Source: Haloterrigena salifodinae
Lineage (GTDB): Archaea > Halobacteriota > Halobacteria > Halobacteriales > Natrialbaceae
Assembly (NCBI RefSeq): GCF_003977755.1
Contig: NZ_RQWN01000002.1
Coordinates: forward strand, 744,001 to 808,000
Reading direction: 5' to 3'
Length of the DNA: 64,000 bases
Shown: in pieces, positions 35,388 through 39,099 of the stretch
Position numbering within the stretch: the stretch's first letter is position 1
Layout: each line of letters starts with the position of its first letter
Notes under the pieces: generated by a model
The model's input: only the letters and a program-made list of their open reading frames with translations
The model's database searches: none
What the model was told of the DNA's origin: nothing
Program-made: the position numbers and the translations under genes

Positions 35388-35475
35388 GCGTCCGGGTCGG
35401 TGACTCGGGGCGGTCTCATCTCGTCGTGTGGGTGCCAGTGGCTTTTTGCCCGTGGTCATTGTTCTCACGCGGATA

Positions 35476-35623
35476 GGGTATGTAGTTCAGTCCGGAAGAA
35501 CGGCTGAACCGTTGCACCGGTCGGGCGAGGGACGTGAGTCCGCGCGGCACGTCGCTTCGCACTTGGGGGAGCATTCGTACAGCGTCGGTCAGCAGGCCCG
35601 AGGTTCGAATCCTCGCATACCCA
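35476..35623 (+). tRNA. Interrupted tRNA-like gene with complete cloverleaf arms
   Basis: A tRNA cloverleaf folds directly. The acceptor stem is 7 of 7 (GGGTATG at 35476-35482 with CATACCC at 35616-35622), then discriminator A. The D stem is GTTC/GAAC. The anticodon stem is GCTGA at 35503-35507 with TCAGC at 35589-35593. The variable loop is 5 nt, and the T arm is CGAGG-TTCGAAT-CCTCG. CCA is not encoded. The anticodon loop holds an 81-nt insert, so an intron of about 74 nt is likely if a normal 7-nt loop is restored. No U at position 33 can be made with any choice of splice point near 37/38; the read-out would be CGT (Thr) in the usual position. It may therefore be a real spliced tRNA, a tRNA-like RNA, or a pseudogene. 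Confidence 0.65.
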
Positions 35624-36027: not shown

Positions 36028-36948
36028 CTATTCGGTGTAGGGTTCGCAGACCTGTTCGACGCCCTCCTCGAGGGAGATCTGGGGTTCCCAGCCGGTTTCC
36101 TCGTGCATCTTGCTCGAGTCGGCGCAGGTGTCGTGGACGTACACTGAGTCGGGAATCGGGTTCTCGACGTACTCGGGGTCGATGTCGGTGCCGAGTTCGT
36201 CGTTGAGCATCTCGACGAGTTCGTTGAAGCTGTAGGCCTCGCCGGTGCCGAGGTTGTAGACGCCAGTGAGTTCGTGCTCCGCGGCGAGTTCGAGGCCGCG
36301 GACGATGTCGTCGACGTGGGTGAAGTCTCGCGTCTGGGTGCCGTCGCCGTAGAGGGCGGGCGCGTCGCCGCCGTCGAGGTCGTCGGCGAACTGGGCGATC
36401 ACGTTGGCGTACTCGCCCTTGTGTTCCTCGGCGCCGCCGTAGCCCTGGTAGACCGAGAAGAAGCGCATCCCAGCGACGTCCATGTCGTAGTGGTTCGCGA
36501 AGTACTCGCCGTAGCGCTCGCGGGCGAGTTTGGAGGCCTCGTAGCCGGTGTTGACCGCGACCGGCATGTCCTCCGGCGAGGGGTCGGTCTGGCTCCCGTA
36601 GATGGAGGACGTGGAGGCGTAGACGACGGTGTCACAGCCGTCCTGGCGGGCCTGGTCGACGACGTTGACGAATCCCTCGACGTTCACGCGAGCGCCCGTC
36701 GTGGGGTCCTCCTCGTGCATCGCGTACGACGAGAGCGCGGCGAGGTGGAAGACGACGTCGACGTCCGTCGGGAGGTCGTCCTCGAGGACGCTTCGGTTGC
36801 GGTAGTCGACGGACGACTCGAGGTTTTCGGCCGTGCCGAGGTACTCGTCGTCGATCGCGACGACGTCGTTGTCTTCGGCGAGGTAGTTCGCCAAATTGGA
36901 CCCGATAAACCCTGCTCCGCCCGTTATCAGGACGCGCTGGTTCTGCAT
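36028..36948 (-). CDS. NAD-dependent nucleotide-sugar epimerase/dehydratase
   Basis: This 306-residue SDR-family enzyme starts at MQNQRVLITGGAGFIGSNL, with the NAD-binding glycine-rich GGAGFIG. The catalytic triad is readable: Ser/Thr in YASTSSIYG and Tyr-x-x-x-Lys in GYEASKLARERY. FHLAALSSY and RDFTHVDDIV blocks match UDP-glucose 4-epimerase-like enzymes. It would interconvert a nucleotide sugar for the surface glycan. It faces away from the other glycan genes, with 137 nt to a zinc microprotein. A Met seven codons upstream is possible but follows no better context. Confidence 0.92.
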   Translation of the reverse strand: MQNQRVLITGGAGFIGSNLANYLAEDNDVVAIDDEYLGTAENLESSVDYRNRSVLEDDLPTDVDVVFHLAALSSYAMHEEDPTTGARVNVEGFVNVVDQARQDGCDTVVYASTSSIYGSQTDPSPEDMPVAVNTGYEASKLARERYGEYFANHYDMDVAGMRFFSVYQGYGGAEEHKGEYANVIAQFADDLDGGDAPALYGDGTQTRDFTHVDDIVRGLELAAEHELTGVYNLGTGEAYSFNELVEMLNDELGTDIDPEYVENPIPDSVYVHDTCADSSKMHEETGWEPQISLEEGVEQVCEPYTE

Positions 36949-39000: not shown

Positions 39001-39099
39001 GAGTCTGTAGTTCAGCCCGACAGCACGGCTGAACCGTTGCCAACAGTCGGTCGTACAGCGCCGGTCAGCAGGCCCGGGATTCGAATCCTCGCATACCCA
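39001..39099 (+). tRNA. Second, degenerate tRNA-like element
   Basis: This element matches the one at 35476 in its D arm, the GGCTGAACCGTTGC block, the GTACAGCGYCGGTCAGC block and the T arm/3' acceptor (TTCGAATCCTCGCATACCC). Even the upstream GGTTCTCACGCG is shared. The acceptor 5' strand is GAGTCTG, which pairs only 5 of 7 with CATACCC. The D stem (GTTC/GCAC) and T stem each carry a mismatch. The anticodon loop insert is shorter, at 35 nt. It is best called a tRNA-like pseudogene copy or a site of duplication. Confidence 0.5.

Follow-up and report, generated by a model that had tools for sequence, protein, structure and literature searches.

A family of tRNA-shaped, probably non-decoding RNAs with an extended anticodon arm scattered through Halobacteria

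Position and architecture of the RNA

The window analysed here, a stretch of 64,000 nucleotides from Haloterrigena salifodinae, contains a tRNA-like RNA in which an insert occupies the place of the anticodon loop (Table 1). All four arms had been described as paired in an initial annotation made from the sequence alone, and direct reading confirms this for the acceptor (7 of 7 pairs), D (4 of 4), anticodon (5 of 5) and T stems (5 of 5) including the loop TTCGAAT. The Infernal-type comparison proposed there gave a match of the Rfam tRNA model (RF00005) to the exact stretch 35476-35623 with 50 bits (E 2.7e-9), skipping 81 nt in the anticodon loop. In its acceptor, D and T arms and in its core residues the RNA resembles a decoding tRNA. 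Neither cmscan of the whole window at the gathering cut-off nor ARAGORN detected it, most likely because of the insert. Our family model R1 assigns 161.5 bits to the window copy, which was itself one of the training sequences of R1. Folded as a single sequence this copy is moderately better than shuffled sequences (z −2.3), so that the case for the RNA rests on comparison.

Table 1. Features of the RNA and its second copy (positions refer to the window).
Feature	Position	Strand	Basis
TATA-like T-tract of a putative own promoter, −33 to −29	35443..35447	+	A+T peak in upstream sequences
tRNA-like non-coding RNA, full length 148 nt including discriminator A	35476..35623	+	Rfam tRNA, family model, covariation
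Acceptor stem, 5' strand GGGTATG, partner 35616-35622	35476..35482	+	sequence reading; covariation (helix 1)
D arm GTTC-AGTCCGGAA-GAAC with tRNA core residues A14, G15, G18G19	35485..35501	+	Rfam alignment; helix 2
Anticodon-stem equivalent, 5' strand GCTGA, partner 35589-35593	35503..35507	+	helix 3
Insert of 81 nt, predicted extended and branched anticodon arm	35508..35588	+	folding of individual members; no conserved bulge-helix-bulge
Conserved apical hairpin GACGTG-AGT-CC-GCGC-GG-CACGTC	35531..35553	+	helix 4
Self-complementary hexamer CGCGCG, tip of the apical hairpin	35541..35546	+	in 34 of 38 members
Anticodon-stem equivalent, 3' strand TCAGC	35589..35593	+	helix 3
T arm CGAGG-TTCGAAT-CCTCG	35599..35615	+	helix 6
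Acceptor stem, 3' strand CATACCC, and discriminator A (35623); CCA not encoded	35616..35623	+	sequence reading; covariation
Second, decayed copy: acceptor 5/7, D stem 3/4, without apical hairpin	39001..39099	+	sequence reading, family model

The insert had been regarded as an anticodon loop of 81 nt. Its length and place are as described; it is not an unpaired loop, and the anticodon stem rather appears to be prolonged into an irregular, branched arm. The length of this arm varies among the members. Many individual folds contain a long helix and, next to the apical hairpin, another small one; both were obtained by single-sequence folding and are less certain than the covarying helices. The apical hairpin has the consensus GYGAGUYCGCGCGRCRC across the relatives, and its CGCGCG tip is the most conserved element apart from the tRNA body. 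Three members (L088-L090) retain the hexamer despite a rebuilt surrounding stem, and one (L080) has a tip that is longer by 2 nt, CGCGCGCG, with self-complementarity preserved. The exceptions are a plain tetraloop hairpin in place of the palindrome (L093 and L099) and the non-palindromic CACGCG (L092); CCAUGG stands at a similar place in L182, to which we give little weight since folding L182 by itself does not place this sequence clearly in a loop. An apparent UGC anticodon in the arm of the window copy (GTTGCAC) is a coincidence, since it is missing from two relatives (G002 and G005). The sole other near-match to the apical hairpin in the genome lies inside a coding sequence for what we take to be a UbiA-like protein, and was rejected as a further copy.

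The copy at 39001-39099 is a relic. It lies 3.5 kb downstream of the complete RNA, flanks a segment with epimerase and glycosyltransferase genes, has retained an upstream T-tract as well, and gave no Rfam match up to E=1. The same copy is present in two related genomes (G001 and G003), and in G002 a complete copy follows the glycosyltransferase gene at the place corresponding to the relic. A different loss is seen in G004, where the copy (L045/L091) lacks the acceptor stem and may be inactive. A tRNA-Glu reported by ARAGORN at 36795-36874 is antisense within an NAD-dependent epimerase gene and most likely false.

Conservation, distribution and promoter signal

Covariation was evaluated for 29 pairs in 37 distinct aligned members (alignment A5), where it has to be kept in mind that A5 was fitted with the model and leans to its structure. 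In this alignment 96.6% of the cells are paired compared to 85.3% in shuffles, 18 of the 29 pairs are changed on both sides (10.0 in shuffles), and 147 cells carry such double changes compared to 36.7. The covariation score is 0.405, and 0.192 in shuffles. None of 500 shuffles reached the observed value on any of the measures of pairing, double change or covariation, and sliding the partner by one to three columns as a control left 32-54% of the cells paired. For the first nine sequences we used a plain MAFFT alignment without the model; here 13 of the 29 pairs of the hand-written structure were changed on both sides, in agreement with the larger set.

Pairs changed on both sides are found in the acceptor, anticodon, apical and T helices. 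The acceptor stem is paired in 97.6% of its cells with double changes in 5 of 7 pairs, the anticodon-stem equivalent has compensatory changes in all 5 pairs, the apical hairpin is paired in 98.2% (double changes in 4 of 6 pairs) and the T arm in 98.4%; the D stem, paired in 99.3%, is nearly invariant in sequence. The earlier statement that the structure is too well formed for chance is confirmed: being kept with compensatory changes in 37 sequences, it is far beyond chance. Sequence comparison shows that selection maintains the acceptor, D and T arms and the T-loop of the tRNA body, together with its core residues U8, A14, G15, G18-G19 and C48.

Absence of a homologous cloverleaf from related genomes had been named as a result that would speak against the RNA. 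Homologous cloverleaves were found across the order. A DNA search of 60 relatives returned the element in G026 and in each of the five remaining genomes of the genus, and more weakly in G008, G019, G035, G044 and G046; these relatives share the tRNA ends and the apical motif. A covariance model was then run on a sample of the order and identified further members, with ten candidates scored per genome, so that absence is not proof, and matches of the family model below approximately 70 bits were mostly ordinary tRNAs. Patterns that required solely the D arm and the T arm at a spacing of 64-125 nt, with the CGCGCG hairpin kept outside the query, identified 17 and 9, together 26, genuine genomes among 392 of the order, most of them with this hairpin. 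Three additional matches in the second of these searches share one sequence that is not a cloverleaf and look like coding matches. The covariance model and the DNA search (including G008 and G035) add about ten genomes, leading to at least 36 genomes in 9 of the 17 sampled families (f1, f4, f5, f9, f10, f11, f13, f14 and f17). These counts are lower bounds. The distribution is patchy, with a detectable copy in less than 10% of the sampled haloarchaeal genomes.

A pattern scan of 84,980 species gave no genuine match beyond Halobacteria; its bacterial matches (Verrucomicrobiales, Streptomyces, others) lack the cloverleaf and are attributed to chance. Within Halobacteria the scan returned two copies in Halonotius pteroides and identified Halovenus rubra, Halobellus salinus, Halorutilus salinus, Haloterrigena salina, Natronococcus sp. 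A-GB1, Natrarchaeobius chitinivorans and several MAGs as carriers. Halovenus salina has five copies on three plasmids (unnamed1, unnamed2 and unnamed3). The PLSDB table contains no gene at these Halovenus loci; as RNA genes are not listed in it and its numbering jumps over one locus tag, RefSeq may well annotate the RNA as a tRNA.

The gene order around the RNA is common to the genus of the window (G000, G001, G003, G004, G005) and is likewise constant inside the Halorutilus group (L104/L111/L113) and inside another genus (L118-L120). Depending on the genus the neighbours are a carbamoyl-phosphate synthase together with an FtsZ-like protein, a prenyltransferase, a P450, an RPE65-like protein or TnpB, and a gene or protein partner conserved beside the RNA across genera was not found. 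Neighbours that are variable across genera and constant within them speak for an RNA that probably stands alone.

A haloarchaeal TATA box is expected at approximately −31 to −27 if the transcript begins at the mature 5' end or slightly ahead of it. Upstream of 35 non-redundant family copies the A+T content reaches 0.60-0.77 at exactly −31 to −27, compared to a mean of 0.48, and the starts of six-base A/T runs cluster at −34 to −30. With this TATA-like peak the copies look like independently promoted genes, each with a promoter of its own, and the promoter signal together with the selection on the structure supports a probable expression of the RNA.

Alternative explanations

We consider it likely that the locus is a gene standing on its own, that its product, a tRNA-shaped non-coding RNA, does not decode and belongs to a family dispersed over Halobacteria, and that the hairpin at the tip of its arm is functional. 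For such an RNA, a conserved tRNA body and the lack of an anticodon are both found, with the promoter signal as the backing for a putative independent transcription. The suggestion of the initial annotation that this could be a new tRNA-like RNA is supported by the covariation, the promoter signal and the homologues across the order.

The strongest competitor, though an improbable one, is that the RNA belongs to mobile elements or travels with them, for instance as a decoy against tRNA-cleaving nucleases of defence systems or toxins, or as an integration site. The five plasmid copies of Halovenus salina would fit, and tRNA-like genes with rebuilt anticodon arms are also held by phage tRNA arrays. 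On plasmids and islands the RNA is found near a 330-aa hypothetical protein in four genera and beside an XPB/Bax1-like helicase-nuclease pair in three (L160 7542-12651, L139 and L153). The 330-aa protein as a dedicated partner was rejected, since it is equally frequent in genomes without and with the RNA (14 of 19 and 14 of 18), and models of anti-phage systems produced on the neighbours helicase-type matches to the XPB-like gene only, including the PADLOC PbeA models. Against a mobile nature stand the several genera with the RNA at one chromosomal site among ordinary genes, the absence of viral contigs from the matches of the tight pattern, and the duplicated stretch in the window, which spans both ends of the RNA and not just a 3' attachment site. 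For the earlier term "domesticated element" the evidence points both ways: several relatives lie on plasmids or mobile islands, others are fixed at one chromosomal locus within their genus.

A functionless relic of a tRNA, decayed or split by an insertion, is very improbable. The second copy in the window fits this description, and the acceptor stem is missing in G004, but compensatory changes are seen across nine families in every helix except the D stem, the insert included, and a promoter signal stands at a fixed position upstream of the copies. The family-wide covariation excludes decay for the family.

Slightly less probable still is an intron-containing tRNA whose unusual intron is removed by the splicing endonuclease to give a normal tRNA. 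Archaeal tRNA introns are located in the anticodon loop, as is this insert, and the haloarchaeal precursors of tRNA-Trp, tRNA-eMet and tRNA-Gln resemble the RNA in having a cloverleaf with an insert in the anticodon region and a similar total length. The RNA has kept an intact tRNA body, which in 18 of the 37 members is closest to tRNA-Ala, and tRNA-Ala(UGC) was not found in the assembly by two patterns. H. volcanii has three tRNA introns (Met 75 nt, Gln 31 nt, Trp 103 nt), each of them with an almost perfect hBHBh' motif (PMC2584109). The window copy has no splice choice leaving a 7-nt loop that yields U33, as had been noted before, and none that yields a bulge-helix-bulge, which had been suggested as a check of the insert borders. 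Among the 37 members one such bulge-helix-bulge choice each exists in L079 and L095 only, at different splice positions and with U33 only in L095, while the elongator tRNA-Met of the same genome as a positive control gave exactly one hit, at 37/38, with CAU and U33. A free search of the arm detected strict bulge-helix-bulge motifs in 7 of 37 members compared to 4.25 expected. More than 90% of the sampled haloarchaea have no detectable copy of the RNA.

Unlike the intron-bearing precursors, the RNA thus has no bulge-helix-bulge, U33 or anticodon, and its insert has a conserved hairpin of its own that is found in unrelated anticodon-stem contexts. The earlier remark that it does not look like the known haloarchaeal cases holds, as a conserved bulge-helix-bulge is missing while the tRNA-Met control passes; the "spliced isoacceptor" is not supported, with neither a conserved motif of this kind nor an anticodon loop in the family, and we regard the intron as largely refuted by these comparisons. 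As tRNA-Ala is closest for 18 members and shares the variable region AGGCCC with the RNA, descent of the family from tRNA-Ala is possible. The alanine pair G3:U70 is present in only 4 of 37 members and replaced by G3-C70 in the window copy, so alanine identity is not maintained.

A relationship to Y RNAs of the YrlA type, the tRNA-mimicking partners of Ro60, has hardly any probability left. YrlA RNAs are tRNA mimics, and with bacterial Y RNAs (RF02553) the RNA shares non-decoding mimicry and a patchy distribution; Ro60/TROVE genes do occur in haloarchaea with weak YrlA matches beside them. The RF02553 model, however, has no match at the RNA, there is no likeness in sequence, and the topology of the ends is opposite: the ends of Y RNAs are situated in the Ro-binding stem, those of our RNA in the acceptor stem. 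TROVE is carried by 2 of the 18 genomes that have the RNA and by 4 of 18 that lack it, and since it is missing from the genome of the window and from 16 of the 18 RNA-positive ones a partnership with Ro60 was rejected. A tmRNA, which likewise has a tRNA-like domain with its anticodon stem prolonged into a long helix, is rejected, as the D stem is normal in nearly all members, neither a tag reading frame nor pseudoknots were seen, ARAGORN reports no tmRNA, and SmpB is to our knowledge not known in archaea.

As a separate observation, dense tRNA arrays were seen near TROVE (Ro60) genes at the loci L195-L204 on contigs of G052, G021, G055, G032, G017, G274, G039 and G164, with TROVE confirmed for the genomes G021, G052, G055, G274, G039 and G164 only. 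Two of these loci have weak YrlA-like matches (31-32 bits, cut-off 69), and it is possible that YrlA-like sequences near haloarchaeal TROVE genes represent archaeal Y RNAs.

Possible function and related observations

Since the design recurs with compensating changes in scattered haloarchaea and on plasmids, it looks like an undescribed non-coding RNA family that is neither a tRNA nor a relic. Rfam 15 gave only tRNA matches in the window and the relatives, and a literature search found no description of the family; coverage of subscription papers was limited, and an earlier description is possible. Non-decoding tRNA mimics have been described in bacteria (tmRNA, YrlA), plant viruses and vertebrates (mascRNA), and we are aware of no such stand-alone family in archaea. 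In mascRNA and the plant-virus structures a tRNA shape serves end processing and protein recognition outside decoding. Those structures are parts of longer RNAs, whereas the RNA described here apparently has its own gene and promoter.

Judging by what is known of tRNAs in general, this tRNA body would recruit RNase P, tRNase Z and the CCA-adding enzyme, by which the RNA would be matured and protected, and it would make the RNA resemble a tRNA to tRNA-binding proteins. The long branched arm in place of the anticodon loop would leave it unable to decode. The CGCGCG tip could then be the working site, a weaker suggestion for which the conservation of the palindrome is the basis. It might most readily pair RNA to RNA, either in a kissing homodimer or with a complementary target, or alternatively be bound by a protein reading the palindrome. 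A kissing homodimer would need a self-complementary tip of six bases, and a conserved binding site would look identical. We tentatively propose, as a minority possibility, an undescribed class of archaeal regulatory RNA, namely a tRNA mimic that dimerises or grips its target by a palindromic kissing loop on a rebuilt anticodon arm.

The RNA is missed by annotation pipelines, as by ARAGORN here, or would probably be labelled an intron-bearing tRNA, so that haloarchaeal tRNA counts and surveys of introns may include it. It further offers, in genetically tractable organisms, a test of what a tRNA body is useful for once decoding is removed. If the kissing-loop regulatory RNA were true, it and the tRNA-like genes of phages would be instances of a broader pattern, in which tRNAs with a rebuilt anticodon arm have been put to use convergently by cellular and mobile genomes.

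Loose patterns applied to viral contigs returned, among the matches listed, tRNA arrays and other tRNA-like genes, none of them belonging to this RNA family. We further report that viral contigs with tRNA arrays contain tRNA-like genes of approximately 101-107 nt with 7-bp acceptor stems (L358:7258-7364 on the plus strand; L417, L434, L444 and L455). In place of the anticodon loop they have a conserved insert similar to UAUGAUGGUAAAAGACACCGCAAAAG, and their Rfam match is to tRNA only. Further viral contigs (L402, L387, L409 and L436) contain tRNA-like genes 120-139 nt long whose anticodon arms are likewise non-standard, but which are not of that sequence family.
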